This document shows, piece after piece, positions 1 to 23,806 of a DNA stretch of 43,863 bases. The position numbers and the translations under genes were made by a program. This DNA is from Candidatus Eiseniibacteriota bacterium (lineage in GTDB: Bacteria; Joyebacterota; Joyebacteria; Joyebacterales; Joyebacteraceae): the NCBI GenBank assembly GCA_030613615.1, contig JAUWLR010000006.1, forward strand, positions 1 through 43,863. Reading direction: 5' to 3'. The notes below the pieces were generated by a model. The model saw only the letters and a list, made by a program, of their open reading frames with translations. It searched no databases and had not been told where the DNA came from. Each line of letters begins with the position of its first letter. The stretch's first letter is position 1.

Positions 1-1
1 C

Positions 2-673
2 GTGCGCCGCATTCCGGGGCTGAACGCCATCGAGGAGGCCGTCGGCCGTGCGACCGAGATGGGCCGCCCGGTCCTCTACGTGCCCGGTATCGGCGAGATC
101 GACAACATCATGACCATCGCCAGCCTCACCATTCTCTCGCACGTGGCCAAGATAACGGCCAGGTACGAGACGCCTCTCATCGTGCCGACGGCGCGCGCGG
201 TAGTGATGTCGGCCGCCGAGGAGGTTGTCAAGGAGGCGTACGCGGCGGTAGGGAAGCCCGACGGCTACAACCCCGACAACATCCGCTACCTCTCCGACGC
301 GCAGTTCGCATTCGCGGGCGCGGTCAACGGCATCATGTTGCGGGAGAAGCCCGCGGCGAACCTGTACATGGGGGCGTTCTGGGCGGAGTCGCTGCTTCTG
401 GCCGAGACCGGTTTCGAGGCAGGAGCCATTCAGGTTGCCGGGACCGCGATGGTCTCACAGCTGCCGTTCTTCGTGACGGCGTGTGACTTCACCCTGATGG
501 GGGAGGAGCTCTATGCGGCCAGCGCGTATCTCTCGCGTGAGCCGAAGCTCCTGGGCGGCCTCAAGGGCTCCGACTGGATGAAGGTCCTGAGTATCACCCT
601 CATGACGGCGGGCGTCGTTCTATACCTGTTGAACCCGGACAGCGCCTTCGTGGCCTGGTTCGCTTCGCAGTAG
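2..673 (+). CDS. DUF6754-type membrane protein, 5' end outside the window
   Basis: I recognise this as the C-terminal part of a DUF6754-type protein; its function is unknown. The frame is open to the window edge and begins inside the domain (RRIPGLNAIEEAVGRATEMG), so the GTG at base 2 is probably not the true start. The visible part is an alternating alpha/beta region with VLYVPGI near residue 25, a hydrophobic AMVSQLPFFVTACDF stretch, the motif LLGGLKG near residue 190, and one C-terminal transmembrane helix (VLSITLMTAGVVLYLL) ending in a short tail. It is the first visible gene of a co-directional membrane-protein cassette, with 49 bases to the next start. The LLGGLKG-then-helix arrangement recurs in the gene at 1371. 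The family name comes from memory of its characteristic N-terminal motif and should be confirmed by HMM search. Confidence 0.75.
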   Translation: MRRIPGLNAIEEAVGRATEMGRPVLYVPGIGEIDNIMTIASLTILSHVAKITARYETPLIVPTARAVVMSAAEEVVKEAYAAVGKPDGYNPDNIRYLSDAQFAFAGAVNGIMLREKPAANLYMGAFWAESLLLAETGFEAGAIQVAGTAMVSQLPFFVTACDFTLMGEELYAASAYLSREPKLLGGLKGSDWMKVLSITLMTAGVVLYLLNPDSAFVAWFASQ

Positions 674-722
674 GACGGGGCGCGCCCGGACAACGGGAGC
701 GTAGCACAGCAGAGGTCATCGG

Positions 723-1367
723 ATGAGAAGAGAGATCCCACTGGCAATCACCTTCCTGATCGGCATCTTCATGCTGGTCGATTTCTTCGTGCCCCACCAC
801 GTGGTCTCTTCGTCCGCGGAGGAGATGAAGCAGTGGGGGACGATCATCATCGCCGCGTCGATTCTGCTGGGCGTCGGGAATCTCATCCGCGTTCACTTCC
901 ACAAGATACGCAGGAGGCGCGAGGGCTGGGGCTACAGCATCACGACCCTGGCCATCATGGGTATCATGTTCGCCTTCGGCGGACCCTGGGGGACCATCGA
1001 GGAGGGCTCCGCCTTCAACTGGATGTTCCTGAACGTGCAGGTGCCCCTCCAGAGTACCATGTTCTCGCTCCTGGCCTTCTTCATCGCGTCGGCCGCCTAC
1101 AGGGCGTTCCGCCTGAGGTCGGCCGAGGCGAGCCTGCTCCTCATAGCGGCCATCATCGTCATGCTCGGGCGCGTGCCGCTCGGGCAGCTGATGACCAGAT
1201 CCTGGCCCGAGGCCATACAGCTGCCGAACATGACCGAGGTGATCATGGCCTATCCGAACATGGCCGCGTTCCGGGGCATCCTGATGGGCGCGGCGCTGGG
1301 GGTCATGGCGATGGGGCTCAGGATCATTCTGGGCATCGAGCGTTCGTACCTTGGCGGGGAGAAGTAG
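723..1367 (+). CDS. polytopic membrane protein of unknown function
   Basis: A 214-residue integral membrane protein that I cannot assign to a named family. About six hydrophobic helices are visible, starting near residues 5, 38, 74, 110, 136 and 185. Helices two and three are separated by a basic stretch (HKIRRRREGWG), which suggests a cytoplasmic loop under the positive-inside rule. There is no signal peptide and no catalytic motif. The ATG is preceded by a modest GCAGAGG ribosome-binding site. It lies between the DUF6754-type gene and the gene at 1371, only 3 bases from the latter, so the set is almost certainly co-transcribed and probably forms one membrane complex. That last point is inference from spacing. 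Confidence 0.8.
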   Translation: MRREIPLAITFLIGIFMLVDFFVPHHVVSSSAEEMKQWGTIIIAASILLGVGNLIRVHFHKIRRRREGWGYSITTLAIMGIMFAFGGPWGTIEEGSAFNWMFLNVQVPLQSTMFSLLAFFIASAAYRAFRLRSAEASLLLIAAIIVMLGRVPLGQLMTRSWPEAIQLPNMTEVIMAYPNMAAFRGILMGAALGVMAMGLRIILGIERSYLGGEK

Positions 1368-1370
1368 TCG

Positions 1371-2216
1371 ATGGCCGGTAAGCCCTTCGACATACGCAAT
1401 ATCGACCGGCGGATCATCTTCACGCTGATCTTCGTCGCGGTCGTATGGCCGCTGATACAGCCGATGCGCCTCCCGATCGACGTGTCCCCGCCGGTGCAGA
1501 CGCTCTATGACGCCATCGAGGCCATACCGCCCGGGTCCATCGTGATGCTTGGCGCTGACTACAGCCCCGACACGATGCCCGAACTCCAGCCGATGGTCGA
1601 TACGTTCATCCGTCATGCCTTCGAGCGTGATCTCAGGATCGTCGTCGCGTGTCTGTGGCCGGCGTCACCGCCGCTGGTCGAAACGGCGATGGGGCCTCTC
1701 GCCGAGGAGTACGGCAAAGAGTACGGAGTCGACTACGTCAACCTGGGCTACATGGCAGGCGGTATCGTCACGCTCCTGGGCATGGGGGCCAGCATTCCGA
1801 ACACGTACCCCAGCGACTACGGGGGAACGCCGGTGGGAGAGATCCCGCTGATGCAGGAAGTCCAGAACTTCGACGACATCGCTTTCGTAATGGAAATCTC
1901 GGCCGGCACACCCGGTACGCGCGAGTGGGTGCAGCAGGTTCAGGGTCGCTACAGGGTTGCGTTGGGCTCGGGCACGACCGCGGTCGGCGCGCCGAACTTC
2001 TATCCATACATCCAAAGTGGCCAGCTGACCGGGCTCCTGGGCGGTCTCAAGGGCGCCGCGGAGTACGAGACGCTCATCGGGCACCCCGGCGATGCGACCA
2101 AAGGTATGGACGCGCAGTCGATCGTCCACGCGCTCGTCGTGGCATTCATCCTGCTCGGCAATGTGGTCTACCTGCTGTCGCTGCGGTCGAAGAGGCGGGC
2201 AGACGTAGAAGCGTAG
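1371..2216 (+). CDS. two-helix membrane-anchored alpha/beta protein, unknown function
   Basis: A 281-residue protein with an N-terminal transmembrane helix (IIFTLIFVAVVWPLI, residues 15-29) and a C-terminal one (IVHALVVAFILLGNVVYLL, about residues 250-268). Between them is a soluble domain of roughly 215 residues with alternating beta/alpha segments (GSIVMLGADYS, DLRIVVACLWP, DDIAFVMEISAG, RYRVALGSGTT). A soluble domain between two helices would place most of the protein on one face of the membrane. The sequence YIQSGQLTGLLGGLKGAAEYE just before the last helix matches the LLGGLKG motif in the same position of the gene at 2-673, so the two may be distant paralogues. Start ATG with GGGGAGA upstream. 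The fold and role are not recognised. Confidence 0.8.
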   Translation: MAGKPFDIRNIDRRIIFTLIFVAVVWPLIQPMRLPIDVSPPVQTLYDAIEAIPPGSIVMLGADYSPDTMPELQPMVDTFIRHAFERDLRIVVACLWPASPPLVETAMGPLAEEYGKEYGVDYVNLGYMAGGIVTLLGMGASIPNTYPSDYGGTPVGEIPLMQEVQNFDDIAFVMEISAGTPGTREWVQQVQGRYRVALGSGTTAVGAPNFYPYIQSGQLTGLLGGLKGAAEYETLIGHPGDATKGMDAQSIVHALVVAFILLGNVVYLLSLRSKRRADVEA

Positions 2217-2246
2217 CCGTCCCGGCGGCGAGGTGAGGAACAGGCA

Positions 2247-2930
2247 ATGAACTGGCTCCACATGCTCTTCAACGGACCTCCCGGAACACCGGCATCGGTG
2301 GTCTGGGGCTATTGGGTCGCCGCCCTCCTTACCATCAGTATCTACAGCTTCCTCTACAAGGACAACCCGCTCTACAAGTTTGTGGAGAGCCTCTTCGTCG
2401 GCATCGGCGCCGCGTACTGGATGTGCCTGCTCTACCACGAGACGCTGGTGCCCAAGCTGATACAGCCGCTGTTCTTCCCGTTGGAGGGCGATCCGGTCAA
2501 GTGGATCCGGATCTTCCCGGGTATCCTGGCCATCTTCATGCTGCTCAGGTTCTACCCCAAGCTGTCGTGGTTGTCGAGGTGGTCCCTCGGCTTCATAGTG
2601 GGCATGTACTCCGCCGTCAATATCACCGGGTTCGGCCAGGGCGACTTCGTCACGCAGATATACGCGACGATGACCACGCCGCTCAGCGGCACGGGCACGG
2701 GCGAGATCATTCTCAATATCATCGCAATCCTCGGCGTGTTCGCCGTGCTCATCTACTTCTTCTTCTCGAAGGAACACAAGGGTGCCCTGGGCGGAGTGGC
2801 GAAGCTGGGCATCTGGTTCCTGATGGTGGCGTTCGGGGCGTCCTTCGGTTACACGGTGATGGGCCGGGTATCTCTCCTGATCGGCAGGATGACCTTCATG
2901 TTGAGAGACTGGCTCCATCTGATAGACTGA
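2247..2930 (+). CDS. polytopic membrane protein of unknown function
   Basis: A 227-residue membrane protein with about six or seven hydrophobic helices, for example WVAALLTISIYSFLY, IFPGILAIFMLLRF, IILNIIAILGVFAVLIYFFF and LGIWFLMVAFGASFGYTVMG. No signal peptide, catalytic motif or transporter signature is visible. The ATG has a good upstream GAGGTGAGGA. It is the last gene of the cassette. A hairpin follows about 85 bases downstream and the next gene is an unrelated cofactor enzyme. Its consistent partnership with the DUF6754-type gene would be the best clue to function, but that partnership can only be suspected from this one locus. Confidence 0.78.
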   Translation: MNWLHMLFNGPPGTPASVVWGYWVAALLTISIYSFLYKDNPLYKFVESLFVGIGAAYWMCLLYHETLVPKLIQPLFFPLEGDPVKWIRIFPGILAIFMLLRFYPKLSWLSRWSLGFIVGMYSAVNITGFGQGDFVTQIYATMTTPLSGTGTGEIILNIIAILGVFAVLIYFFFSKEHKGALGGVAKLGIWFLMVAFGASFGYTVMGRVSLLIGRMTFMLRDWLHLID

Positions 2931-3015: not shown

Positions 3016-3035
3016 CTCGCGCGGTTGCGCGCGAG
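3016..3035 (+). terminator. hairpin after the membrane cassette
   Basis: A perfect 8-bp inverted repeat, CTCGCGCG-GTTG-CGCGCGAG, followed by TCGGTCGTTCGCTTG. The GC-rich stem and tetraloop fit an intrinsic terminator, but the tail is only moderately T-rich. It lies in the 133-base gap between the cassette and the lipoyl transferase gene. I see no clear promoter in the rest of that gap. Confidence 0.5.
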
Positions 3036-3063: not shown

Positions 3064-3867
3064 ATGAGCTCCTGGCGCTTCCTGAATTCAGGGCGCTCTG
3101 ACGGCGCGACCAACATGGCCGTGGACGAGGCCATCCTCGAGGGAGTGGACCGCGGTTCCTCGCCCCCGACCCTCAGGGTCTATGCGTGGGAACCCCCGAC
3201 GGTATCCACCGGCTACTCGCAGAAGGTCTCGGTCGAGCTGGATTGGGAAGCGTGCAGGAGTCGGGGTTTCGGCGTTGTCAGGAGACCCACGGGAGGCAGG
3301 GCCGTTCTTCACGCCGGCGAGCTCACGTATTCGGTGGTGGGGCGCTCCGGCGAGCCGCCGCGCGGCGGGACCATCGCCGAATCCTACCAGGCGATCGCCA
3401 ACGGTCTTCTGCTGGGATTGGAGCAACTGGGAGTGTGCGCGGAGCTCGCGGCTGTCCCCGCCGCTCCCAGGGGCAGGGGAGAGGTGGCGCCGCCGTGCTT
3501 CGTCAGCGCGGGGCGATTCGAGGTAGTGGTCGCGGGCAGGAAGCTCATAGGGAGCGCGCAGAGACGCCTGGGCGCTGCCGTGCTCCAGCACGGTTCGCTC
3601 CTCACGGACGGGACGCACGTGCAGCTGGCGGACGTTCTGCGCGTTCGCAAGGAAGTGGACCGCGCGGCGATCAGGCGGACATTGGTCTCGAAGACGACGA
3701 ATCTGGCCGCGATTCTGTCGAGGTCGCTGGAATTCGAGGAACTCGCGTGCGCAATGAGGGCGGGGTTCGAGAGGGCGTGGGGGATCACGTTCGGGGACGG
3801 CGCTCTCAGTGAGCGCGAGTCGGAGGCCGCCGGGAGGCTCACAACTGAATACGACGCGGGCCCTTAG
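3064..3867 (+). CDS. lipoate-protein ligase / octanoyltransferase family protein (LipM-like)
   Basis: A 267-residue protein of the BPL/LplA/LipB catalytic-domain family, which attaches octanoate or lipoate to lipoyl domains of 2-oxoacid dehydrogenases or glycine cleavage H protein. Visible motifs are NMAVDEAIL near residue 18, VVRRPTGGRAVLH (71-83) followed by ELTYS, GRKLIGSAQRR (158-168, with the family lysine K160) and LQHGSLL (174-180). C145 in APPCFVSAGRFEV sits where LipM-type octanoyltransferases carry their catalytic cysteine. This favours LipM activity over an ATP-dependent ligase. The C-terminal accessory domain is short. The start is ATG with only a weak GGAG upstream. Its likely downstream beneficiary, an E3 component, lies separately at 30570. 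Family assignment is firm; choosing between LipM and LplA is inference. Confidence 0.85.
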   Translation: MSSWRFLNSGRSDGATNMAVDEAILEGVDRGSSPPTLRVYAWEPPTVSTGYSQKVSVELDWEACRSRGFGVVRRPTGGRAVLHAGELTYSVVGRSGEPPRGGTIAESYQAIANGLLLGLEQLGVCAELAAVPAAPRGRGEVAPPCFVSAGRFEVVVAGRKLIGSAQRRLGAAVLQHGSLLTDGTHVQLADVLRVRKEVDRAAIRRTLVSKTTNLAAILSRSLEFEELACAMRAGFERAWGITFGDGALSERESEAAGRLTTEYDAGP

Positions 3868-3912: not shown

Positions 3913-4008
3913 TCATAGGTGTGGATGACGAGCGACCGGCCCTCGTCCGACCCGGACGAAGAGGCGGATATTTATATGTCGGAGGACCCCCGAGGAGATG
4001 GAGATACC

Positions 4009-6786
4009 ATGAGACTACCGAGACGGCTGTCCCGGGAGAGCGGATTCGCGTGCCTCTTCCTGCTGGTCGCGCTCGTCGTGGTCCTGGTCGCCACGCCCGC
4101 GTTCGGGCAGACGACAGGGCGCATCACGGGTACGGTGACCGATGCCAAGAACGGCGCTCCGCTGCCCTTTGCGAACGTGTCCATCATCGGCACGGCCTAC
4201 GGGAACATCACGAATCAGCTTGGCGAGTACGTCATCGACTATCTGCCCGTGGGTACCTACGTCGTCCAGGTCTCGTACATGGGGTATGACACCAGCCGCG
4301 TGTCGGACGTGGTGGTGGAGCCCGATCGTTCCACCATGGTGAACGTCTCACTCGATCAGGCTGCTCTGCTGGCGGACGAGATCGTCGTCGAGGCCGAGCG
4401 GCCCCTCGTTGACGTCGAGAAGACGACCACGACTCGTCGAATGGACGATGAGGAAGTGAAGGTCCGTCCCATCAGCACGGTGGCGGAGGCCGTGGCCACA
4501 CAGCCCGGTGTCGTCCTCGTCGATGGCGAGCTGCACGTCCGCGGCGGTCGCGCGAGCGAGGTCAAGTACTACGTGGACGGCATTGCCATCACGGACGCCG
4601 CCAGCGGCACCGGAGGGCTCGAGGTCAGTCTGTCCTCGCTGTCCGGTTTCGACCTCCTGTCGGGCGGATTCGACGCCGAGTACGGGAACGTTCAGTCCGG
4701 TGTCGTCAACCTCCAGACGCGAGAGGGTGGGCGGCAGTTCTCGGGTGAGATCAAGTACATGACGGACGACTACGGGGCCCCCGAGCGGACGTACGACAAT
4801 TACGACAACATCCTGTTTGGGTTGGGCGGACCGCTATTCACCGAGAAGATTCGATACTACGTGTCCGGCGAGGGACGCTTCAGCGACACCTATCTCCGGA
4901 CGAGCAAGGAGAGAGAGAGGGAAGATGTCTGGGGCAATCTCTTCAACCTCAAGGTGCCCAACAGGCAGTCTGTGCTGGGCTCGGCTCAGGCCAAGCTCTC
5001 TTTCATTGTGACCCCGACCCGGAAGCTGACGGCCGAGTACCTGACCTCGAGGACGGTACGCGACTACTACTTCCACAACTACTCCAGAACGGGCTACTGG
5101 TCGCCGAGGCTGCGTAAGAACGATGCGGGGGAGTACATCCCAGGGCACGAGGACTGGTCCCACGTGCCTCTCGACTCGACGTACATGTACTACAACGCTG
5201 CGGAGCACACTCCCGGATCCGATGACCGGTTTTCGACGCAGAAACTGGTCTGGCGCGACAACGTCAGCCCGACGATGTTCTACACCGTGAAGGTGGCGCA
5301 CTTCAAGTCGGACGAGAAGTACTGGCTCCACGAGGATCCGAATGACTACTGGTGGCAGGCGTACGTAGCAGGAGCCAAGACACTGGACGAGGACTCGGAC
5401 AACGACCTGAATCCCGAGCCCGGGTACTACAGGACCTGGGGCGACCAACTCGGCTGGACGCACAACGAGACGAGCGCCACGACGTTCAAAGCCGACCTGA
5501 CGAACCAGCCTAACGAGACTCACCAGATGAAGAGCGGCTTCGAGGTCATCTATAACACGCTAAGTGTCACGAGGCTCAGCCTTGGCACGCTGATCCCGAG
5601 CGCCGGTGACACACTGGATCCGCACTTCGAGTACTTCAACTGGGAACGAGCGCTGAACACGGGGGAGCGCAACCAGCACAACATCTTCGAGGGGTTCCCG
5701 ACGCACGGTGCGATGTATCTTCAGGATAAGATGACGCACGAGGGCATGATCGTCCGCGCCGGTCTCAGGCTGGACTGGTCGGACCCCGGTGCCTCGTCTG
5801 ACGTAGGCCAGACCCAGATATGGCGCGAGAGGGTCAACGCGGTGCTCTCGCCCCGCCTCGGGATCGCCCATCCCATATCCGACAGGGACGCTCTGCACTT
5901 CCATTACGGCCGATTCTACCAGATGCCCCACCTGACAGCCCTCTACGAGTCGGATGAGAACATAGACTCGGCGCCCGCCGGCAGGGTCATCGGTTACTCG
6001 GGTCTCGAGCCTGAGGTGACCACGTCGTATCAGTTCGGTGCCGAGCACCAGTTCTCCCAGAACCTCGCGATGGACGTCACGGGGTTCTACAAGGACATCT
6101 TCGGCCTCCTGGCCACCGAGGAGTACTCCCGAGGTCCGACGGAGGGGTCGGTCTACCCCTACGTCAACAAGGACTACGCTTCCGTCAAGGGCGTCGAGCT
6201 CAAGGTGACGAAGCGCTTCGCCAACTTCTTCATGGGCAACTTCAGCTACACGTGGCTGCAGGCCACCGGCGTGTCGTCCGACGAGAACCAGGGCGCTCAG
6301 GCCGAGGACATCGGGCTGCCCAGACAGCCCCTCAAGGAGATTCCCCTCGACTGGGACGAGCGGCACTCGCTCTCGGGGTTCATCTTCATCAGTGACCCGG
6401 GCAACTGGGAGGTGACGTTCGACTACAACTACGGCAGCGGGACGCCGTACACCCCCAGCGTTCTCGGGCAGAAGGAGATCGACCCCGAGTCGGTGAACTC
6501 TGGAAGCCGTCCGTCGCACCAGAATCTCGACATCAGAGGTACGAAGAAGTACAAGCTCTATGGGCAGGAGTTCAGCCTCTTCTTCGAGGCGCACAACGTG
6601 TTCGACAAGAAGAACCTGCGTGGACTCGGAGCCTACGGGGCCGAGTACTACACGATGACGGGCAATCTCGGCGGCGCGTTTGTGGAGACCGGCCCGGACG
6701 GTCGCGAGCGCCTCAAGCCCCTGAACGATCCTTCGGTCTTTACCGAAGGCCGGTGGATCAGTGTCGGGATCGCCGTCGACTGGTAG
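4009..6786 (+). CDS. TonB-dependent outer-membrane receptor with carboxypeptidase regulatory domain
   Basis: A 925-residue outer-membrane receptor for TonB-energised uptake; the substrate cannot be told from sequence. The ATG at 4009 is preferred because GGAG lies 5 bases upstream and it opens a classical signal peptide (MRLPRRLSRESGF then a leucine/valine core ending PAFGQ). The ORF-track start at GTG 3919 coincides with the predicted transcript start and adds 30 unlikely residues. After the signal comes a carboxypeptidase-regulatory-like domain (GRITGTVTDAKNGAPLPFANV through VSYMGYDT), then a plug with HVRGGRASEVKYYVDGI and FDAEYGNVQSGVVNL. A long aromatic-rich beta-barrel follows and ends in WISVGIAVDW. 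The matching energiser is probably the ExbB/ExbD/TonB operon at 16223-19542. Downstream neighbours are secreted and PorV-like proteins in the same operon. Confidence 0.92.
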   Translation: MRLPRRLSRESGFACLFLLVALVVVLVATPAFGQTTGRITGTVTDAKNGAPLPFANVSIIGTAYGNITNQLGEYVIDYLPVGTYVVQVSYMGYDTSRVSDVVVEPDRSTMVNVSLDQAALLADEIVVEAERPLVDVEKTTTTRRMDDEEVKVRPISTVAEAVATQPGVVLVDGELHVRGGRASEVKYYVDGIAITDAASGTGGLEVSLSSLSGFDLLSGGFDAEYGNVQSGVVNLQTREGGRQFSGEIKYMTDDYGAPERTYDNYDNILFGLGGPLFTEKIRYYVSGEGRFSDTYLRTSKEREREDVWGNLFNLKVPNRQSVLGSAQAKLSFIVTPTRKLTAEYLTSRTVRDYYFHNYSRTGYWSPRLRKNDAGEYIPGHEDWSHVPLDSTYMYYNAAEHTPGSDDRFSTQKLVWRDNVSPTMFYTVKVAHFKSDEKYWLHEDPNDYWWQAYVAGAKTLDEDSDNDLNPEPGYYRTWGDQLGWTHNETSATTFKADLTNQPNETHQMKSGFEVIYNTLSVTRLSLGTLIPSAGDTLDPHFEYFNWERALNTGERNQHNIFEGFPTHGAMYLQDKMTHEGMIVRAGLRLDWSDPGASSDVGQTQIWRERVNAVLSPRLGIAHPISDRDALHFHYGRFYQMPHLTALYESDENIDSAPAGRVIGYSGLEPEVTTSYQFGAEHQFSQNLAMDVTGFYKDIFGLLATEEYSRGPTEGSVYPYVNKDYASVKGVELKVTKRFANFFMGNFSYTWLQATGVSSDENQGAQAEDIGLPRQPLKEIPLDWDERHSLSGFIFISDPGNWEVTFDYNYGSGTPYTPSVLGQKEIDPESVNSGSRPSHQNLDIRGTKKYKLYGQEFSLFFEAHNVFDKKNLRGLGAYGAEYYTMTGNLGGAFVETGPDGRERLKPLNDPSVFTEGRWISVGIAVDW

Positions 6787-6882: not shown

Positions 6883-9129
6883 ATGATTCGTTTCAGAAGG
6901 ATGACGCACAGAACACCTGGCGCACCCCCCGGACGGGCGGAGAGCCTTGTAGCTACGGTCGCTGTATGCACGCTCGTGGCCGCGCTCGTGGTCTCGGTCG
7001 CGGGGGTGGCGACCGCCCGTATGGAGACCTCGAACAGGAAGGACAAGGGCGAGGTAACGCTGCCTCCGACCCGCGCGATCAGCTACTACGGCTGGTACCA
7101 CAACGTCGGGCAGCTTCTGCTTCACGTGTCGAACCTTGGCTACTTCGGTGACTGGCCCGGTTCCAGAATCGACGACATCACGGCCCCCTCCGCCGAGTGG
7201 CCGGCCGGCAGCGCGCACAATTACCTTTACGCAGCCGGCCTCTGGGTGGGGGGCTCTGTCATCAACAGAGCGACGGGCGAGATGGACACGCTGGTCACCG
7301 CGGGTGTGTATCAGCGGGAGTACCGCCCCATTCTGGAAGATCCGCTCAAGGTCATATACGAGTCGTGGGAGGGCGCGGCGAACAGCGGGCGCTGGCTTGA
7401 CGACGATGATGACTGCCGTCCGGACCTCGACGTCGGTTTCGAGTTCTTCGACGAGGACTGGCTCGACGGTATCGACAACGACGGCGACGGCCTTGTGGAC
7501 GAGGATTACGCCGCGATCTCCCAGCAGATGTTCCGGTGTGAGTACGAGGACACGAACGAAGAAGACGTCAACGAGGGGCTCTCGTCCGACTTCCACCACA
7601 GCCTGGGGCTCAACATCATCCAGGAGAGTTATCAGTGGACCAGCGAGCAGACCGATGACTTCGTCGGCATCGACTTCACCGTTGTGAACATCGGTCAGGA
7701 CACCATCCGGATGGCCTACGTCGGGTTCATGGTGGACGCCGATGCGGGGCCCGAGCGGGTGGACCAGTACTACAGCGACGACCGCGGCGGGTTCATCGAC
7801 ACGCTCATCATCAATGCCAATCCCAACGATCCGACCGAGCTGGACACGCTCGACATCGCCGTGGCGTACATGTACGATGACCCGTACGGGGCGGATGGCA
7901 ACGAGGCGAAGGGCTACTTCGGCTGCATGTTCCTCGGGCACCCCACCAGCGACCCGGACACGCTAACGCCGGGGCTTATGCCGAGCGAACCCGTGAGGCT
8001 CAGAGTCCACGCCTTCCGTATCTGGTCGAGCGCGGGAGAGGATCCCAGAAACGATCTGGAGCGCTACCAGTTCCTCAGGGGTGTTGCCGACTACCCGCTG
8101 CTGGACGGAATAGACAACAACAACAACGGCCTGATAGACGAACCGGAGGAGTGGCGGGTCAACATCGACAGGGATGCGGACGCCCCGCTCGACTGGCGCT
8201 TCATGTTGTCGGCCGGCCCGTTCGCGCAGATCGTCCCGGGCGACAGTCTATCGTTCCAGTACGCCTTCGTGATGGGCCTCGGGCTGGACGGCATGCTTCA
8301 GAACGCCGCGACGGCACAGCAGATCTACAACGGTGTCACTCAGGAGGTCCCCAATTGCATTGGTGAGCCCGAGAGCGTGCGGATTCACTGGGTGGCCGAT
8401 ACGCCTCCGCCTCCTCCGAATCAGGAGATCACCGCGGGCGACGGCTTCGTCAGGATCGAGTGGGACGATTTCTCCGAGAACGTGGAGGACCCGCTCACTC
8501 GCATCAAGGATTTCTACGGTTATCAGGTCTGGAAGGCGGTAGGTTGGACGAGAGAGTCGAGCCAGCCCAGGGATCAGGACTGGCAGCTCATTCTCGACGC
8601 CGACCGTGGTGACGGTGGAGCGGAGCTCGACACGCTCGACACCGGCCTCCAGGGTATCGGGAAGTACAACTTCGTGGACAGCCACGTGAAGAACGGCTTC
8701 ACGTACTGGTACTCCGTCACGGCCTACGACAGCACGCCAGAGGGTTTCCACTTCGGGAAGTACAGCCAGAACAAAACGCTGGTCGTTCCCAACTCCGGCG
8801 TGCGTGGCTCGCTCGACGATATCCGGGTGGTGCCCAACCCGTACGTCGACCACGAGTACATGGCGCGGTGGAACCTCGAACCGGACGAGGCGGACCCCAC
8901 CGGTGAGAAACTCTGTTTCCAGAACCTTCCGAGGGACGCTGAGGTCAGGATCTTCTCGCTGGGCGGCGAGCTTGTTCAGACGCTCTATCCTGATGCGGAC
9001 ACGGACGGCGGCGACGCCTGCTGGAACATGATCTCCAGAAACAACCAGATCGTAGTGAGCGGCGTGTATCTCTACCACGTAGACTCGCCGATTGGAGAGC
9101 AGGTCGGCAAGTTCGTCATCATCAAGTAG
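6883..9129 (+). CDS. large secreted protein with fibronectin-like region and Por/FlgD-type C-terminal sorting domain
   Basis: A 748-residue exported protein of unknown function. The N-terminus has a basic stretch and a hydrophobic segment (VATVAVCTLVAALVVSVAGVATA, about residues 24-46), consistent with a long signal peptide. Two acidic loop motifs stand out: DGIDNDGDGLVDED near residue 195 and DGIDNNNNGLIDEPEE near residue 408. They resemble calcium-binding loops of thrombospondin type 3 repeats. A fibronectin-III-like stretch follows a proline run (TPPPPPNQEITAGDGFVRIEWDD). The end carries IRVVPNPYVD, an EVRIFSLGGELVQTL strand and GVYLYHV...GKFVIIK, the hallmark of C-terminal modules of type IX-like cargo. 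ACGGAGGTGG precedes the ATG. It is followed by two PorV-like barrels, which in type IX systems handle such cargo. Confidence 0.85.
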   Translation: MIRFRRMTHRTPGAPPGRAESLVATVAVCTLVAALVVSVAGVATARMETSNRKDKGEVTLPPTRAISYYGWYHNVGQLLLHVSNLGYFGDWPGSRIDDITAPSAEWPAGSAHNYLYAAGLWVGGSVINRATGEMDTLVTAGVYQREYRPILEDPLKVIYESWEGAANSGRWLDDDDDCRPDLDVGFEFFDEDWLDGIDNDGDGLVDEDYAAISQQMFRCEYEDTNEEDVNEGLSSDFHHSLGLNIIQESYQWTSEQTDDFVGIDFTVVNIGQDTIRMAYVGFMVDADAGPERVDQYYSDDRGGFIDTLIINANPNDPTELDTLDIAVAYMYDDPYGADGNEAKGYFGCMFLGHPTSDPDTLTPGLMPSEPVRLRVHAFRIWSSAGEDPRNDLERYQFLRGVADYPLLDGIDNNNNGLIDEPEEWRVNIDRDADAPLDWRFMLSAGPFAQIVPGDSLSFQYAFVMGLGLDGMLQNAATAQQIYNGVTQEVPNCIGEPESVRIHWVADTPPPPPNQEITAGDGFVRIEWDDFSENVEDPLTRIKDFYGYQVWKAVGWTRESSQPRDQDWQLILDADRGDGGAELDTLDTGLQGIGKYNFVDSHVKNGFTYWYSVTAYDSTPEGFHFGKYSQNKTLVVPNSGVRGSLDDIRVVPNPYVDHEYMARWNLEPDEADPTGEKLCFQNLPRDAEVRIFSLGGELVQTLYPDADTDGGDACWNMISRNNQIVVSGVYLYHVDSPIGEQVGKFVIIK

Positions 9130-9193
9130 TGTGGAGCTCCCGCCGTCGGCGGTGCGAGGGTTCGCTCCGCGACCGGTGGAAGGAGGACGGTCA

Positions 9194-10165
9194 TTGACTA
9201 GGAAGCTGCTACTGGGCCTGCTTGTTGTTCTCGTTCTGACGTCTCAGGCTCTGGCTACGGACGTGTTCGAGAAAGTCGGTACCGTGGGGTGCCAGTTCCT
9301 GGAGATAGGCGCCGGTCCGCGCGGTGTGGGGATGGGTGAGGCGATGGTGGCCGCGACGGAGGGCGTGGAGTCGATCTACTGGAATCCGGCGGGTCTCCGG
9401 TCCATCGTGAGACCGACGGTGGTCTTCACGTACGGCACGTGGCCCGCGGACATCTCCCACCAGTTCGCGGCCTTCGCGATGAGGGATCCTGTCATCGGTG
9501 GCGTCGCGGCACTGAGCATCACGTCGCTTGGGATGGCCCCCATGCTGGTCAGAACGGCGGATTCTCCGGCGGGCGTGGGGGTGGAGTTCGACCCCGGCGA
9601 CATCGCCATCGGCGTGTCGTACGCCCGTGAGTTCACGGACAAGTTCGCCGCGGGTGGAACACTCAAGTGGGTCCACTCCAGTCTGGCCGACCTCTCCGCC
9701 CTCGGCGTTGACGGGCTGGAGGACTACTCGGCGCGGGGTTTCGTGGGCGATTTCGGGACGCTCTACAACACGGGCTTTCGCTCGCTCAAGATCGGGCTGA
9801 TGATCCAGAACATGGGACCCGAGATGACCTACATCGAGGAGCCCGTGCCGATGCCGGCCACGTTCAAGTTCGGCGTCTCAATGAACGTTATCGAGACGCC
9901 TGGACAGATCGTGAAGGTCGCGGCGGAGTTCAGGCATCCCTCGGACACGTCCGAAAAGGTCAACGTCGGTGCTGAGTACGTGCTGAATGACATGTACTTC
10001 CTTCGCGCCGGCTACAAGATAGGTTACGACGAGGAGTCGTTTACGGCGGGCTGCGGAGCCCGGCTGACCGTGGGAGGTTTCGGCCGCCTGGGAGTCGACT
10101 ACAGCTACGCCGCTTTCGGCTACTTCCCTGGAGTCCATCGCGGCGGAGTGACAGTTGAGTTCTAG
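9194..10165 (+). CDS. PorV/UPF0164-family outer-membrane beta-barrel protein
   Basis: A 323-residue exported protein of the PorV/UPF0164 family, members of the FadL-like barrel group. In type IX secretion PorV is the outer-membrane shuttle for cargo. I chose TTG 9194 because AGGAGG lies 7 bases upstream and a clean signal peptide follows (LTRKLLLGLLVVLVLTSQALATD). The longer ORF-track start at 9092 would overlap the previous gene and add low-complexity serine residues. Family signature: FLEIGAGPRGVGMGEAMVA followed by YWNPAGL near residue 63. Repeated beta segments follow and the protein ends VHRGGVTVEF, with a terminal aromatic typical of barrels. Its partner at 10257 is a paralogue. Confidence 0.88.
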   Translation: MTRKLLLGLLVVLVLTSQALATDVFEKVGTVGCQFLEIGAGPRGVGMGEAMVAATEGVESIYWNPAGLRSIVRPTVVFTYGTWPADISHQFAAFAMRDPVIGGVAALSITSLGMAPMLVRTADSPAGVGVEFDPGDIAIGVSYAREFTDKFAAGGTLKWVHSSLADLSALGVDGLEDYSARGFVGDFGTLYNTGFRSLKIGLMIQNMGPEMTYIEEPVPMPATFKFGVSMNVIETPGQIVKVAAEFRHPSDTSEKVNVGAEYVLNDMYFLRAGYKIGYDEESFTAGCGARLTVGGFGRLGVDYSYAAFGYFPGVHRGGVTVEF

Positions 10166-15977: not shown

Positions 15978-16222
15978 CCCTGCGACATAACTTGAACAGG
16001 CGCGGCCGGGCCGGGCGCACGCCTCAAGGGTGTGCGGAACGCGGGGTTGGGTTCATGACTCCGTTCCCCCCCCAGGCTCAGGGAAACAGCAAGCGTGGGA
16101 GGTGGCCAGAGGAGGCAGAGCAGTCCGAAGTGTGTTTGAGCAGTGAGACGGGAAGTGCCACAGAGGACCGCGATCTGCCCGTGGTGGGACGTGTCGCGGC
16201 AAGGGGGAGGAGAAGCAAAGTA

Positions 16223-17080
16223 ATGAGAAGAGTCTTCTTGACTGTTTCGGCGGGACTCATGGTGCTGATGCTGACAGGCACGATTAGCCCGCTGGCAGCG
16301 CAGACTGAAACGGCGGCGGAGATCGAGGGCATGGTCGCCACGGCCGAGAGTACGGTCGTCGATACGGGACTCGTCGACACTACGGCCGTCGACTCGCTCG
16401 CGGCCGCGATGGAGGAAGAACCCGTCGAGCCGGAGCCCGTGCCTCAGGCGCGCGGCTTCGCGCAGAGCGGCCTTGTTGAGTTCTTCAACAAGGGCGGGAA
16501 GTTCATGTGGGGCCTCCTGTTCCTGTCCATCGTCGGTGTCGCGGTCATCATCGAACGGGCCATCACGTTGCACAAAGCCCGCTCGGATGTCCGGAAGCTG
16601 ATGGAGCGGGTCGTGGGCGCGCTCAAGAAAGGGCGTCTGGACGAGGCGATCGAGGTCTGCGCGACCGTGCGTGGTCCGATTCCGCAGATCCTGCACGCGG
16701 GGCTCATGCGGGCGAAGAAAGGGACCGAGGCCGTCCAGAAGGCCATCGAGACAGCGGGCATCATTGAGATGTCGTTCCTCGAGAGAGGACTCATCATCCT
16801 TGCTACCGTCGCGAACGTCGCACCTCTGCTCGGGTTCCTCGGGACGGTCTCAGGCATGGTCGGGGCGTTCGAGGCGATAGCTCAGGCGGAGCAGGTCAGC
16901 GCCAAGCTCGTCGCGAGCGGTATCTCAGAAGCGCTGATCACCACGATGACGGGTCTTATGATCGCCATCCCGACGCAGGTTGCGCACAACCTGTTCGTTC
17001 AGCGGATCGACCGGTTCGTGGTCGAGATGGAAGACAGCGCGGCGGAGCTGGTTGACGTGCTCACCGAGATGGATACGTAG
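16223..17080 (+). CDS. exbB: MotA/TolQ/ExbB proton-channel family protein
   Basis: A 285-residue inner-membrane subunit of the proton-driven motor that energises TonB-dependent transport. The ATG at 16223 has GGGGAGGAG about 10 bases upstream; the longer ORF-track start adds 77 polar residues. The protein starts with a signal-like hydrophobic segment (RRVFLTVSAGLMVLMLTGTISPLAAQ) and an acidic linker of about 50 residues. It then has the family core: TM helix KFMWGLLFLSIVGVAVIIERA and, after a cytoplasmic domain, TM helices in LATVANVAPLLGFLGTVSGM and EALITTMTGLMIAIPTQVAHN. An N-terminal exported extension is seen in ExbB proteins of several non-proteobacterial groups. The next genes are two ExbD and two TonB. 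Confidence 0.9.
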   Translation: MRRVFLTVSAGLMVLMLTGTISPLAAQTETAAEIEGMVATAESTVVDTGLVDTTAVDSLAAAMEEEPVEPEPVPQARGFAQSGLVEFFNKGGKFMWGLLFLSIVGVAVIIERAITLHKARSDVRKLMERVVGALKKGRLDEAIEVCATVRGPIPQILHAGLMRAKKGTEAVQKAIETAGIIEMSFLERGLIILATVANVAPLLGFLGTVSGMVGAFEAIAQAEQVSAKLVASGISEALITTMTGLMIAIPTQVAHNLFVQRIDRFVVEMEDSAAELVDVLTEMDT

Positions 17081-17142: not shown

Positions 17143-17589
17143 ATGGCGAGATTCAGGAAAAGAACGAGGATATCGGCCGACATGGTCGGCGAGTCATCGA
17201 TGTCGGACGTCGCCTTTCTGCTCCTCATCTTCTTCATTGTGAGCACGACGTTCCCCGAGGTAGGCCTGCCCATGATCCTGCCGAGCAAGGCAGGAGACGT
17301 GAAGCAGGTCAAGCGGGACAACGTCATGCAGATCGTAACGGCGAGGAGTGGCGCGTACTTCATAGATATCGACACTGAACCAACGCCGCTCTACGAGCTC
17401 AGGGGTATCGTGAGACAGCGCCTCACGGACAACAAGAACCTGATTCTGTCCCTGGAGACGCATCCCGATGCTCCCTACGGGAGTATGATCAACGCACTCG
17501 ACGAGGTGACGCTCGCCTACAACGAACTGGCGGCGGCGAACATCAAGCGAGAGCACAGGATCTCCCTGAAGATGCTCGACATAGAGTAG
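17143..17589 (+). CDS. exbD: ExbD/TolR-family biopolymer transport protein, copy 1
   Basis: A 148-residue protein with the ExbD layout: a short basic cytoplasmic tail, a single TM helix SMSDVAFLLLIFFIVSTTF and a periplasmic domain. The helix carries the proton-handling aspartate (D22 in MSDVAF). The domain ends NIKREHRISLKMLDIE. It pairs with ExbB in the motor. A 6-bp hairpin (GCGGGA with TCCCGC near 17122-17142) lies in the gap before it. The start is ATG with AGGGAAGG upstream. The presence of a second, divergent ExbD directly after it suggests a heteromeric ExbD pair in one motor, a known arrangement in some Bacteroidetes-like operons. Use in this organism is inferred. Confidence 0.92.
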   Translation: MARFRKRTRISADMVGESSMSDVAFLLLIFFIVSTTFPEVGLPMILPSKAGDVKQVKRDNVMQIVTARSGAYFIDIDTEPTPLYELRGIVRQRLTDNKNLILSLETHPDAPYGSMINALDEVTLAYNELAAANIKREHRISLKMLDIE

Positions 17590-17608: not shown

Positions 17609-18019
17609 TTGGAGCTGAGGAGGAAAGCGGGGAGCGGGGCCAGAATCCCGACGTCCTCGATGGCAGACATCGCGTTCCTGCTGATCGTCTTCTTCATGGT
17701 CACGACGATCTTCAAGATGGAACAGGGTCTGGCCATCACGCTTCCCAGGTCGACGGCCGGTGAGAAGATCCCGAAGGAGAACGTCGCCCACATCTGGATC
17801 GATCGGACCGGGATCATCTCCATCGACGACCTGGTGGTCAGCGTGCCTGACATCGATTATATGATCAGCGCGAAGCTTCGTGAGAACCGGGGTCTCATCG
17901 TCTCTTTCAACACGGACGAGAACGCTCCGTACCGAGTCGTCAACGAGGCGATGGAGAGGCTCAAGCTGGCCAACGCACTGAGGGTTACATTCACCACGGT
18001 GCCAGTGGAGGAGCAGTAG
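17609..18019 (+). CDS. exbD: ExbD/TolR-family biopolymer transport protein, copy 2
   Basis: A 136-residue second ExbD. Its TM helix is SMADIAFLLIVFFMVTTIF with the conserved aspartate, preceded by a basic cytoplasmic tail (LELRRKAGSGARIPTS). The periplasmic part differs clearly from copy 1 (for example ENVAHIWIDRTGIISIDD), so this is not a recent duplication. It starts with TTG, GGAGG lying 8 bases upstream, and is 19 bases after copy 1, so the two are translated from one message. The copies may occupy different positions around the ExbB ring. Confidence 0.9.
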   Translation: MELRRKAGSGARIPTSSMADIAFLLIVFFMVTTIFKMEQGLAITLPRSTAGEKIPKENVAHIWIDRTGIISIDDLVVSVPDIDYMISAKLRENRGLIVSFNTDENAPYRVVNEAMERLKLANALRVTFTTVPVEEQ

Positions 18020-18075: not shown

Positions 18076-18708
18076 ATGAGTCCATACACCGCGGTACACA
18101 TGACAGCGGAGCAGGAGCTCAAGAACCAGTACCCGAAGGCATTCAGGTATGCGGTCCTGGCTGCCATCGGCATACACCTTCTCGCGTTTCTGCTCACGCC
18201 GGATTGGAAGCCGAAGCCGTACCAGCTCCGCGAGAGGCAGGTGCTGGAGGCCATCAACATTCCGGACCAGATCTCAATACCACCGCCCCCGAAGGAGGAG
18301 GCCAAGCCGATCGTCCCGACGGAGATCGAGCCGAGCGAGGACGCGGACGCGGCTGAGACCATCGCGTCCACGGAGCTGGACGTTGAGGCTCCGCCTGAGC
18401 TCCCGCCGGCGCCCCAGCGGGCCGAGTTCTTCACGGCGTTCGACGAGCCTCCACAGGTCATCACGCAGATCTCGCCGGTGTATCCGGACATGGCGAGGCA
18501 GGCCGAACTGGAGGGCGTGGTGATGGTCCAGATCGGCGTCAACGAGTTCGGCGATGTCGTGGAAGCGACCATCGTCAAGGGGGTCGAGGGACTCAACCAG
18601 GCGGCGATCGAGGCGGTCTACAAGTGGAAGTTCAGGCCGGCGAAGCAGCGGGACATCCCCGTTCCGGTTCGCATCGTTGTGCCGATTCGGTTCGTGCTCA
18701 GGGGCTGA
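18076..18708 (+). CDS. tonB: TonB-family energy transducer, copy 1
   Basis: A 210-residue TonB protein that spans the periplasm and links the ExbB/ExbD motor to outer-membrane receptors. One N-terminal TM helix (FRYAVLAAIGIHLLAFLLTP) is followed by a proline/acid-rich linker (ISIPPPPKEEAKPIV). The C-terminal TonB domain is ITQISPVYPDMARQAELEGVVMVQIGV through AVYKWKFRPAKQRDIPVPV. This domain is the canonical receptor-contacting fold. The start ATG 18076 has GAGGCGAGGG upstream; an internal ATG at 18100 is possible. It follows ExbD copy 2 by 56 bases. Confidence 0.93.
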   Translation: MSPYTAVHMTAEQELKNQYPKAFRYAVLAAIGIHLLAFLLTPDWKPKPYQLRERQVLEAINIPDQISIPPPPKEEAKPIVPTEIEPSEDADAAETIASTELDVEAPPELPPAPQRAEFFTAFDEPPQVITQISPVYPDMARQAELEGVVMVQIGVNEFGDVVEATIVKGVEGLNQAAIEAVYKWKFRPAKQRDIPVPVRIVVPIRFVLRG

Positions 18709-18869: not shown

Positions 18870-18918
18870 CGCCATACCTGCGTAGGTCGATTGTCTACCG
18901 GGAGTGGGGGGACACGAG

Positions 18919-19542
18919 ATGAGTACCTGGCCGACCGCCGAGCAGATACTCAAGGACGAGCACCCGCGGATCCTGAGAGTTGCGGTTCTCCTGGCCCTGT
19001 TGATTCACGCCGTTGCGTTTGTGGCGACGCCGTCGTTCACCGTTGAGCCCTACAGGCTCAGAGAGGATGGGCCGCCTCCCATCACGCCAGTTGTGGTGTC
19101 CTGGGAGCGCAGCGAGCCCCTGCGGCCTGCGCCGAAGCCGCCGGCAGTGCGGGAGTTCGCGCCCTCGATGGATGCGAACGCGGACGCGACGATCGACGGC
19201 ACGTCGTATGACCCTCTGAGCGCGGCTCCGGTGGAGCCGGTGCCCCTGGGCACTCCCAGGGTGCTGGACGTCTTCGAGGTGCCGCCCAAGCTGGTCCTGC
19301 GGATTCGGCCCGTCTACCCCGAACTGGCACAGCAGGCCGAACTCGAGGGGGTCGTGGGGCTTCTGATCGTGGTCGATGAGGCCGGGAACGTCGTCAGCGC
19401 GGACGTCGTGCGATCCGTTCCCGGGCTCGACAGGGCTGCGATCGACGCAATCCTGCAATGGAAGTACGAACCGGCTCTACAGAGGGACGTTCCCGTTCGG
19501 GTGCGCATCTTCCAGTCGGTCCGTTTCCGGCTTCGCGACTGA
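18919..19542 (+). CDS. tonB: TonB-family energy transducer, copy 2
   Basis: A 207-residue paralogue of the preceding TonB. The ATG at 18919 is preferred because GGGGGG lies just upstream; the ORF-track GTG at 18904 is inside that site. Both copies share the N-terminal pattern TAEQ-L-K-E/Q-P...LIHAVAF (here VAVLLALLIHAVAFVATP) and PYRLRE, then a proline-rich linker. They also share the C-terminal domain (LRIRPVYPELAQQAELEGVVGLLI, ILQWKYEPALQRDVPVRV). The linker is different and shorter in charge. Two transducers behind one motor could serve different receptors. It ends the energiser operon and is followed by hairpins. Confidence 0.93.
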   Translation: MSTWPTAEQILKDEHPRILRVAVLLALLIHAVAFVATPSFTVEPYRLREDGPPPITPVVVSWERSEPLRPAPKPPAVREFAPSMDANADATIDGTSYDPLSAAPVEPVPLGTPRVLDVFEVPPKLVLRIRPVYPELAQQAELEGVVGLLIVVDEAGNVVSADVVRSVPGLDRAAIDAILQWKYEPALQRDVPVRVRIFQSVRFRLRD

Positions 19543-19751: not shown

Positions 19752-20549
19752 ATGGCGGAGCTAAACGAGAGCCGGGACGCAGCAACCCCCGCGCCGGCGC
19801 AGCCTGAGGGCGCGAGGAGCGGGATCGTAGGCTGGATAACGGGCGTCTTCATGGACCCCGGGGCCACCTTCCAGGGCATCGCGGACAGTGTGGAACGAAC
19901 CTCTCCGACCGACCCGAACAAGACGAAGGACATGTCCAAGTGGTGGCTCCCCGTTCTCATCACTATCGTCGTGGGCATCGGGATCGCCCTCTACACGGTC
20001 CCCACTTTCATCGCCCCGATGCAGGCAGACGTCATCCGTGAAGCCGTGATGGAGCGCGGCGGAGCGGCGGCCGACGCCGAGCAGGCGATCAAGATGTCGG
20101 GTGCGATGATGGTGCCGATGTCGCTCGTAGGGGTGATTGTCGCCACGTTCCTCATCGTCTTCGCAGCTGCCGGTATCGTTCACCTGGTGATGAAGATGGT
20201 TGGCGCGAAGGGCAGATTCAGACACGCCAGAGCCGTCGTGGCGTGGAGCATGTTGATCACGACCCTCGGGAGCCTCATCAAGCTGCCCATAATGATCGCG
20301 AAGAGCTCGATGATAGTGGAGACGGGGCCGTCGCTCTTCTTCAAGGACCTCGAGCCCTCCGATCGTCTCTTCAAGTTTCTCAGCGGCTTCGACATCTTCA
20401 CCATCTGGTGGATGGTGGTGATGATTGTCGCGCTGGCCGTCGCCTACCGGGCCTCAAGGGGCAAGGCGGTCGTGGCCGTCGCGGTTCTCTGGATACTGTT
20501 GATACTGATCTCGACCTTTACACCAGGAGGCATGGGTGCGGGTATGTAG
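19752..20549 (+). CDS. Yip1-family integral membrane protein
   Basis: A 265-residue membrane protein with the look of the YIP1 domain family. It has a short soluble N-terminus with GWITGVFMDPGATFQGIAD, a typical lead-in of bacterial YIP1 proteins. About five hydrophobic helices follow (WLPVLITIVVGIGIALY, VPMSLVGVIVATFLIVFAAAGIVHLVM, AVVAWSMLITTLGSLIKLP, IWWMVVMIVALAVAY and VVAVAVLWILLILIS). Bacterial members have no established biochemical role and often sit beside ABC exporters. Here its end overlaps the start of the TolC gene, placing it at the head of the export operon. Start ATG with AGGAAAGGGGATGCGACA upstream. Confidence 0.8.
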   Translation: MAELNESRDAATPAPAQPEGARSGIVGWITGVFMDPGATFQGIADSVERTSPTDPNKTKDMSKWWLPVLITIVVGIGIALYTVPTFIAPMQADVIREAVMERGGAAADAEQAIKMSGAMMVPMSLVGVIVATFLIVFAAAGIVHLVMKMVGAKGRFRHARAVVAWSMLITTLGSLIKLPIMIAKSSMIVETGPSLFFKDLEPSDRLFKFLSGFDIFTIWWMVVMIVALAVAYRASRGKAVVAVAVLWILLILISTFTPGGMGAGM

Positions 20550-21846
20550 GAGGAAGGGCAAGCACATGGGCGCGGCGCTGGTCTGTGCCACGCTCGTGTG
20601 CACGGTCCTCACGGTTTCCGTCCTCCCCGCGCGGGCCAGGGTCTACACGCTCGAGGAGTGCATAGAGGTCGCACTCGTGGAGAACACGACCTTGGCACGG
20701 GCCAGAGAGGACCTGAGGGGCGCCGACGCGAGCGTGATGTCCGGCTGGTCCGGCGTGCTGCCGCACGTGTCCGCGGGTGCAACCGCCAGCGATAACCTGG
20801 CGGTCTTAGAAGGAGTGGACATCAAGTCCGAGGGCCTGACGGGGAGCATCAGCCTCTCGCAGACTCTCTTCGACGGTTCCACGTTCGCCAGAATCGCAGG
20901 CACTCACCGGGGCAGGACGGCCGCGGAGCTCTCGCTTGAGTTCACCCGGCGTGAGATCGTGTTCGAGACCAAGCGGGCCTACTACAGCCTGCTGAGAGCC
21001 GTCCAGCTGCGAGACGTGCAGGAAGAGGCCGTCGATCTGGTTCGCGAGCAGCTGAGGAAGACGCAGAGTCTGTTCGACCTCGGATCGGCTTCGAAGTCGG
21101 ATCTCCTGAAGGCTCAGGTCCAGATCGGCGAGGCCGAGCTGGCCTTCATCGCGACCGACAAGGCGGCCGAGATCGCTCGGGCGGGGCTCGCGCTCACGCT
21201 CGGGATCGACGTGACGACCGAGATAGAGGCCGTCGATCCGCCGGAAGACAGGCTGGAGGAGGAGATCACGGACTTCGACATCGAGGCTGCGATCTCGTCC
21301 AGGCTGGACATCAAGGCGTGGGAGGAGTTGCTCGTGGCGGCCCGCCGCTCCCTGCTTTCATCCCAGGCGGGCTGGTGGCCGGAACTCAACCTCTCGATGT
21401 CCTACTCGAGGGGAGTGGGCTCGCACTGGCTCGGAGATCTCTTCGAGGACGCGAGCGAGAACTACACGCGGTCGACCAGCGTCAGGCTGTCTCTTCCCAT
21501 CTTCAACGGGCTGGCGACGAAGGCAAGCGTCGACGGCAGCAGGTCGTCGCTGCGCTCGTACGAGATCTCCCTGCGAAGCGCCAGGCTTTCGGCCGCATAT
21601 GAGATCGAGAGCGCAAGACTCTCCGCAGAAGAAGGAAGACGCAGTGTCGAGGTCGCGCGGCAGTCTGTCCTCCAGGCCGAAGAGGACCTCAGAGTTTCGG
21701 AGGAGCGGTTCCGCCTGAGGGCGGCGAGCATGCTCGAACTGATAGACGCAAGAGTTGCGTACTCACGTGCCCGCGCGGGGCTGGTGGATGCGCGCTTCAA
21801 CTACGAGATAGCGAAGGCGGAACTCAAGCTCGCGCTTGGGCTGTAG
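20536..21846 (+). CDS. TolC-family outer-membrane efflux protein
   Basis: A 436-residue outer-membrane channel of a tripartite exporter. Two OEP repeats are visible as long amphipathic helices: LEECIEVALVENTTLARAREDL near residue 36, LDIKAWEELLVAARRSLLSSQAGWWPELNLSMSYSRG in the second half and SVLQAEEDLRVSEERFRLRAASMLELIDA near the end. The GTG at 20536 is favoured: AGGAGG lies 5 bases upstream and it gives the signal peptide a basic n-region (MRVCRRKGKHMGAAL). ATG 20566 would start it without positive charge. The overlap with the Yip1 gene indicates translational coupling. The periplasmic adaptor follows 31 bases later. Confidence 0.92.
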   Translation: MRVCRRKGKHMGAALVCATLVCTVLTVSVLPARARVYTLEECIEVALVENTTLARAREDLRGADASVMSGWSGVLPHVSAGATASDNLAVLEGVDIKSEGLTGSISLSQTLFDGSTFARIAGTHRGRTAAELSLEFTRREIVFETKRAYYSLLRAVQLRDVQEEAVDLVREQLRKTQSLFDLGSASKSDLLKAQVQIGEAELAFIATDKAAEIARAGLALTLGIDVTTEIEAVDPPEDRLEEEITDFDIEAAISSRLDIKAWEELLVAARRSLLSSQAGWWPELNLSMSYSRGVGSHWLGDLFEDASENYTRSTSVRLSLPIFNGLATKASVDGSRSSLRSYEISLRSARLSAAYEIESARLSAEEGRRSVEVARQSVLQAEEDLRVSEERFRLRAASMLELIDARVAYSRARAGLVDARFNYEIAKAELKLALGL

Positions 21847-21877
21847 GCTCAACGGGGCGACGGAGGGGGTAGCTCTC

Positions 21878-23125: not shown

Positions 23126-23128
23126 CGG

Positions 23129-23806
23129 GTGCTGATCGAACTCCGTGACATGTTCAAGACGTACGAGGTCGGCACCCAGCAGGTCCACGCGCTGCGCGAC
23201 ATATCGTTGTCGATCGAGGAGAACGAATACGTGGCCATCATGGGTCCGTCGGGCTCCGGGAAGTCGACTCTGATGAATATCGTGGGGTGTCTCGACACGC
23301 CCACCGAAGGTTCGTATCTACTGAAGGGCACGGAGGTCGCCGCGCTCGATGACGATGAGCTGGCGGAGATCAGAAGCGCCGAGATCGGCTTCGTGTTCCA
23401 GACTTTCAACCTCTTGCCCCGAATGACCGCGTTCCAGAACGTGGAGCTCCCGCTGATATACGGCAGGGCCGCGAGGCACACGCGCGCCGAGCGCGTCTGG
23501 GAGACGATGGATGCCGTCGGCCTGAGAGATCGGGCGCATCACCGCCCCAACGAGCTCTCCGGCGGGCAGCGGCAGCGTGTGGCCATCGCCAGGGCGCTCA
23601 TCAACCGGCCCTCCATCATCCTGGCCGATGAGCCGACCGGGAACCTGGACTCGGTGACGGGCGAGGAGATCATGCAGATCTTCCGTGCGCTGAGCGATGC
23701 GGGCAACACCATCATCCTGGTGACGCACGAGCAGTACATCGCCGAGCACGCCACCCGCATCGTGGAGCTCCTCGACGGACGGATCGCGAGCGACACGACG
23801 ACCTGA
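23129..23806 (+). CDS. MacB/LolD-type ABC transporter ATP-binding protein
   Basis: A 225-residue nucleotide-binding subunit of a type VII (MacB-like) ABC transporter. All motifs are intact: Walker [10 protein letters not shown] (about 39-47), Q-loop [21 protein letters not shown], signature [15 protein letters not shown], Walker [14 protein letters not shown] and the switch histidine in ILVTHE. Residues FNLLPRMT and the length match the MacB/LolD/FtsE subgroup. It starts with GTG, GGAGGAG lying upstream in the end of the adaptor gene. In canonical MacB the ATPase and permease are fused; here they are separate genes, followed by two permeases. Confidence 0.95.

Follow-up and report, generated by a model that had tools for sequence, protein, structure and literature searches.

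Do the four genes that open this stretch of DNA (43,863 nucleotides, here called the window) encode a membrane complex that has not been described before, and what might such a complex do? A preliminary description had singled them out as a candidate for an undescribed membrane complex: four adjacent, co-directional genes for membrane proteins, spaced by 3 to 49 bases and led by a DUF6754-type protein. The four open reading frames were confirmed, all on the plus strand, with gaps of 49 (g1–g2), 3 (g2–g3) and 30 bases (g3–g4), and they are likely to form one transcript. The beginning of the window is organized as follows.

2–673, plus strand: g1, DUF6754 protein (copy B), C-terminal half approximately; PF20539, 348.7 bits against a cut-off of 27
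723–1367, plus strand: g2, polytopic membrane protein with about six transmembrane (TM) segments and without known family; conserved alignment
1371–2216, plus strand: g3, TM segment, alpha/beta domain (predicted periplasmic), TM segment; without known family
2247–2930, plus strand: g4, polytopic membrane protein with five to seven hydrophobic segments and without known family; conserved alignment
3016–3035, plus strand: GC hairpin in the g4–lplA spacer, atypical for an intrinsic terminator
3064–3867, plus strand: lplA, lipoate-protein ligase (LplA-B_cat, 128 bits); the conserved next gene in the phylum

The proteins read from the window comprise 223 (g1), 214 (g2), 281 (g3) and 227 amino acids (g4). 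Membership of g1 in DUF6754 is clear, its score being far above the cut-off. Its reading frame lacks a start codon as the 5' end is cut by the contig edge, and the match spans profile positions 39–249 of 257, such that the protein is shortened only by the contig end. Based on an AF2 model of an orthologue (locus L066; pLDDT 87.9), intact g1 has about 430 amino acids and consists of a signal peptide, an FN3 domain, a TM segment, an alpha/beta domain and a second TM segment. Foldseek matches of this model are essentially to the FN3 domain, which was also the sole match when the PDB was searched with the sequences of the quartet proteins. The g3 model (pLDDT 91.7) retrieved nothing from the PDB with Foldseek at E ≤ 1e-3. 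No Pfam or NCBIfam family was found above cut-off for g2, g3 or g4 of the window, nor did any family match consistently when 37 members of each were scanned. Weak matches of g2 to TMD0_ABC (14 of 37, best E-value 1e-5) were read as generic hydrophobicity, and this assignment was rejected. Thus, Pfam and NCBIfam lack an entry for three of the families, and the remaining one (g1) is a DUF, a name with no tie to a four-gene, ATPase-linked system. The open-access literature searched did not mention DUF6754 and held nothing useful on PF20539 or PF13941. The initial statement that no enzyme or transporter motif can be recognized agrees with these searches of Pfam, NCBIfam and the PDB, in which none of the four proteins matched a family of known unrelated function.

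Two of the initial proposals needed correction. Two polytopic proteins are indeed present; however, the other two do not carry merely a C-terminal helix, because g1 and g3 both have a TM segment on either side of the alpha/beta domain. Counts of lysine and arginine according to the positive-inside rule (117 g3 and 120 g1 sequences) indicate a periplasmic g3 domain and a cytoplasmic g1 domain. In the two alpha/beta models, helices and strands follow one another in the same order, and an LLGGLKG-like motif precedes the last TM segment; despite this likeness, detectable homology between g1 and g3 was rejected because profile comparison lent it no support. The only invariant cysteine reported is C348 of g1. 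The hairpin that was thought to close the cassette exists as a perfect 8-bp GC stem, yet it lacks a U-tract and terminator prediction did not call it. The spacer of 133 nt between g4 and lplA is no more stably folded than shuffled sequence (z 0.10).

A scan of GTDB genome contigs yielded more than 551 related stretches, from which 79 loci of about ten phyla were retained. In these loci, 114 of the 135 DUF6754 genes are followed by g2, g3 and g4 on the same strand and in the same order, and most of the other 21 are located at contig edges or affected by ORF merges. A doubled g1 was found in L138 and in L196, the latter fetched after the 79-locus set. The order recurs in Zixibacteria, WOR-3/Stahlbacteria, Fermentibacteria, Coatesbacteria, Edwardsbacteria, Latescibacteria, Planctomycetota and one deltaproteobacterial lineage, in whose phylum 4 of 193 sampled genomes carry g1. 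Quartets occur as tandem arrays of one to three. Because the same gene order is found in so many phyla, the cassette is not a chance arrangement; the genes stay together in unrelated genomes instead of being scattered. Judged by this conserved order and by the lack of known-family matches, the proposal of an undescribed membrane complex is well supported at the level of sequence. Viral contigs contained no relative of the quartet, and a viral origin was rejected on these grounds. Likewise, a fusion of g2 with g3 that ORF extension had indicated in L051 and L055 was rejected in view of a stop codon in between. Two single loci deviate from the common form. In L133 (11973–13697), g3 and g4 lie in one open frame of 575 amino acids, possibly a fusion or a lost stop codon in this single genome. 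L180 (7452–10652; genome G226) contains a divergent quartet whose g1 is part of a 1067-amino-acid open frame with a long N-terminal part; an sml-like gene (see below) is present there, with MutL and KOW not nearby.

In many loci of several phyla the quartet is preceded by a core of four genes. These encode m0, a small membrane protein with two TM segments and, by our own reading of the sequence, a PH-like tail; sml, a small membrane-associated protein; a MutL-family protein; and a KOW protein. A neighbour labelled gcvPB in Planctomycetota and in the deltaproteobacterial locus was rejected as GcvPB, being in fact the small gene m0. The linked MutL matches PF13941 over the full domain (423 bits), carries the ASKHA-type motifs DCGSTTTK, DIGGATTD and GSGG, and has no solved relative by sequence. 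The KOW protein (374 amino acids) consists of an N-terminal barrel-sandwich domain, a conserved middle part and a C-terminal KOW-like end. Genomes contain up to seven g1 genes (one to seven quartets) versus usually one canonical MutL and one canonical KOW; of those checked, G006 has two copies of each. The comparative data make it highly probable that the fixed-order quartet belongs to a larger system with m0, sml, MutL and KOW, in which usually a single core stands against one to seven quartets.

A second, diverged MutL-KOW is present as a single fused ORF of 882 to 988 amino acids in the window's phylum, in a Fermentibacterium and in the deltaproteobacterial genome, and this fusion supports a physical MutL-KOW unit. 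The fused ORFs, which come from at least three phyla and have no quartet nearby, are located at the following positions.

L189, 4251–7031: fused MutL-KOW ORF
L190, 3946–6657: fused MutL-KOW ORF
L191, 3514–6159: fused MutL-KOW ORF
L192, 708–3527: fused MutL-KOW ORF
L193, 5806–8769: fused MutL-KOW ORF

The genome from which the window stems (a MAG of 288 contigs and 2.87 Mb, with the window being contig C114) contains an array of quartets. Over its first 141 bases the window agrees at 100% with the terminal part of contig C151, and we read this as an assembly overlap. On C151 lie the N-terminal half of the window's g1 and, upstream of it, a second, diverged g1-g2-g3-g4, and a third quartet is located on C194 behind a lysine-aminotransferase-like gene. 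Genomes of this phylum usually have three quartets: A and B stand in tandem with lplA after them, and copy C lies separately, behind the aminotransferase gene; DUF6754 is present in all 20 genomes sampled. Contig C191 stops inside the MutL gene, which is preceded by gcv genes, m0 and sml. The kow gene was not found in the contigs of this genome, and we infer that it would lie in the gap between C191 and C151. The phylum groups with Candidatus Effluviviacota, described in PMC11323493, a genome paper whose text, within the terms searched, mentions neither TonB nor glycine nor the quartet system.

In a tree of g1, tandem copies that hold the same array position in different species group together: positions one, two and three of Zixibacteria form separate groups, and copies A and B of Effluviviacota fall into different major groups. 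By this clustering, the array positions are ancient paralogues which are conserved across species and probably non-redundant. Paralogous quartets of a shared locus resemble each other no more than quartets of different loci do. Identity between paralogous quartets is highest in the cytoplasmic domain of g1 (64.5%), followed by g4 (50.6%), g2 (49.8%), the g3 domain (43.6%) and FN3 (37.6%), and the g1 domain exceeded the g3 domain in 53 of 53 pairs.

The patchy presence of the system in Planctomycetota allowed a phyletic test over 149 genomes, in which g1 occurs in 41, g3 in 42, KOW in 37 and MutL in 42. The number of shared genomes was 41 for g1 and g3 (Fisher p 5e-36), 36 for g1 and KOW (p 6e-28) and 36 for g1 and MutL (p 7e-23), with all p values uncorrected for kinship. 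In G145 and G127, mutL-kow-g1 is found at one site and g2-g3-g4 at another (about 2 Mb apart in G145), and in other Planctomycetota the core is apart from a whole quartet. Since both parts were kept after the operon had split, their linkage is more than operon inertia, and the joint retention of mutL, kow and g1 suggests that g1 links the core to the membrane unit. The system is present in some Planctomycetota whose large genomes are assembled as a single contig, and gene deletion may thus test its function now.

These data also bear on what the MutL-family protein does. PF13941 includes GlmL, a chaperone that reactivates glutamate mutase according to PMC4682846, and MutL could likewise be a reactivase of a B12-dependent mutase, with the membrane genes next to it by chance or as unrelated members of the operon. 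We give this hardly any credence because MutL and the quartet co-occur even when unlinked, MutL-KOW fusions exist, and matches to GlmE (PF06368), the glutamate mutase subunit E, were found in 0 of 40 genomes in a search that lacked a positive control. The linked MutL further differs from GlmL in a C-terminal extension of about 110 amino acids and in its coupling to KOW and to membrane quartets.

Taken together, a dedicated ATPase, co-retention of unlinked parts and ancient tandem paralogues argue for a real machine, which probably moves or energizes something across the cell envelope. We propose that a conserved inner-membrane machine has the quartet as its membrane part and that MutL and KOW form a single cytosolic ATPase unit. 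The dock of this unit would be the alpha/beta domain that g1 exposes to the cytoplasm, chosen because it is the most conserved part of the quartet and because g1 remains with kow where the operon is split; with co-localization and conservation as its basis, we give the docking model an even chance. Binding and hydrolysis of ATP by MutL would gate or drive the membrane unit g2-g3-g4, the alpha/beta domain of g3 and the FN3 domain of g1 would face the periplasm, and different quartets would be specialized modules served by the common ATPase. If true, this would be a widespread and ancient machine and a new class of envelope complex powered by ATP, different from ABC, ECF and Ton systems: an ASKHA ATPase, normally present once per cell, would drive several interchangeable, anciently diverged four-subunit modules. 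We consider this a plausible proposal with slightly less than an even chance of being correct. No described system with these parts was found in open-access literature, and nobody appears to have described the four-gene module, which occurs with its ATPase in many phyla that are little known.

The arrangement resembles ECF transporters in logic only, with one common energizing unit and several membrane modules. It is not a member of that class as the ATPase is of the ASKHA (MutL) rather than the ABC type, the EcfT and S families are absent, and all four membrane subunits are repeated here, rather than one being shared. No ABC_tran domain occurs in the conserved cluster; the ABC gene of the window (23129 onwards) is part of a MacB-type cluster. 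A redox- or ion-translocating complex with Rnf/Nqr-like logic, in which KOW would be an RnfC-like hub and g2 and g4 the ion path, would accommodate the two polytopic subunits and the resemblance of the KOW N-terminus to barrel-sandwich proteins, visible in weak matches to Biotin_lipoyl (17 of 19), RnfC_N (12 of 19) and NqrA_N (5 of 19). The RnfC_N match is, however, sub-threshold in the member shown in full (16.6 bits against a cut-off of 25.6), and the conserved middle and KOW end set the protein apart from RnfC and NqrA. Moreover, the family alignments contain neither conserved cysteine clusters nor a flavin motif, and no homologue of RnfB/D/G or NqrB/D/E/F was found among the parts, including g2 to g4; an ATPase is present instead. 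We therefore regard such a complex as very improbable.

Relatives of the quartet have lplA close behind, and in the window a TonB-dependent receptor gene adjoins lplA, with further Ton genes about 13 kb further on.

3919–6786, plus strand: TonB-dependent receptor (CarboxypepD_reg and Plug), with orthologues near the quartet in three phyla
15992–17080, plus strand: ExbB/TolQ-type proton channel, belonging to the linked Ton system
17143–17589, plus strand: ExbD
17609–18019, plus strand: ExbD
18076–18708, plus strand: TonB_C protein
18904–19542, plus strand: TonB_C protein

A homologous receptor is encoded downstream of the quartet in Effluviviacota, Fermentibacteria and Stahlbacteria, and ExbB-ExbD-TonB in the latter two. 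Effluviviacota and Fermentibacteria have glycine cleavage genes (gcvT-H-PA-PB) before the core, which together with lplA and lysine aminotransferase represent the catabolic neighbours of the system. ExbB, ExbD and TonB are separate proteins encoded near the quartet in the window as well as in three phyla, and g1 to g4 are not their homologues: the quartet proteins of the window have no MotA_ExbB or ExbD domain, and ExbD matched 2 of 37 g2 proteins with a best E-value of 0.36. In Stahlbacteria/WOR-3, a DUF4388 gene lies directly downstream of the quartet (L070, L072, L074, L078, L081, L084) and is followed by genes for two conserved 218-amino-acid proteins, two small membrane proteins, ExbB, ExbD, ExbD and TonB. 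The 218-amino-acid proteins look roadblock-like by eye only, without a Pfam match.

The neighbours, the shared ATPase and the variable periplasmic parts make import or energized transfer of TonB-delivered nutrients, with a substrate that differs per quartet, our first choice for the role. This is the weakest step of the proposal: the Ton link is clear in only three of about ten phyla, some members have no Ton genes nearby, the link could be inherited synteny, and neither g2 nor g4 matches a transporter family. The whole chain including this role is put forward as tentative. A membrane-anchored complex for sensing or spatial organization, in which the ASKHA ATPase and the PH-like, FN3 and alpha/beta domains position or signal without any transport, would account for alpha/beta domains on both sides of the membrane, and many paralogues per genome would suit receptors. 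The Stahlbacteria order of quartet, DUF4388, the two roadblock-like proteins and Ton genes also fits. Two large polytopic proteins per module are many for a sensor, however, and the neighbours seen include no recurrent histidine kinase, receiver or c-di-GMP partner, which leaves this reading unlikely.

Assembly or export of cell-surface or outer-membrane proteins is less probable still. The FN3 domain of g1 would be in keeping with it, as would PorV-like proteins and a CHU_C/Por_Secre_tail protein in the window, but beyond the window's phylum such genes are not regular neighbours of the quartet, and g1 to g4 have no match to a secretion family.

Besides the quartet, the window encodes a PorV-like protein (9092–10165) and a protein matching FlgD_ig, CHU_C and Por_Secre_tail (33938–35629); the sorting tail of the latter is of the type IX secretion type, here present beyond Bacteroidota. 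A tripartite efflux cluster (20536–26396) consists of OEP, an HlyD-type fusion protein, an ABC ATPase and two MacB/FtsX permeases. In Zixibacteria, a PPDK-like protein of about 967 amino acids with a basic N-terminal extension adjoins the quartets in many loci (L092, L101, L105, L111, L125, L126, L131, L133).
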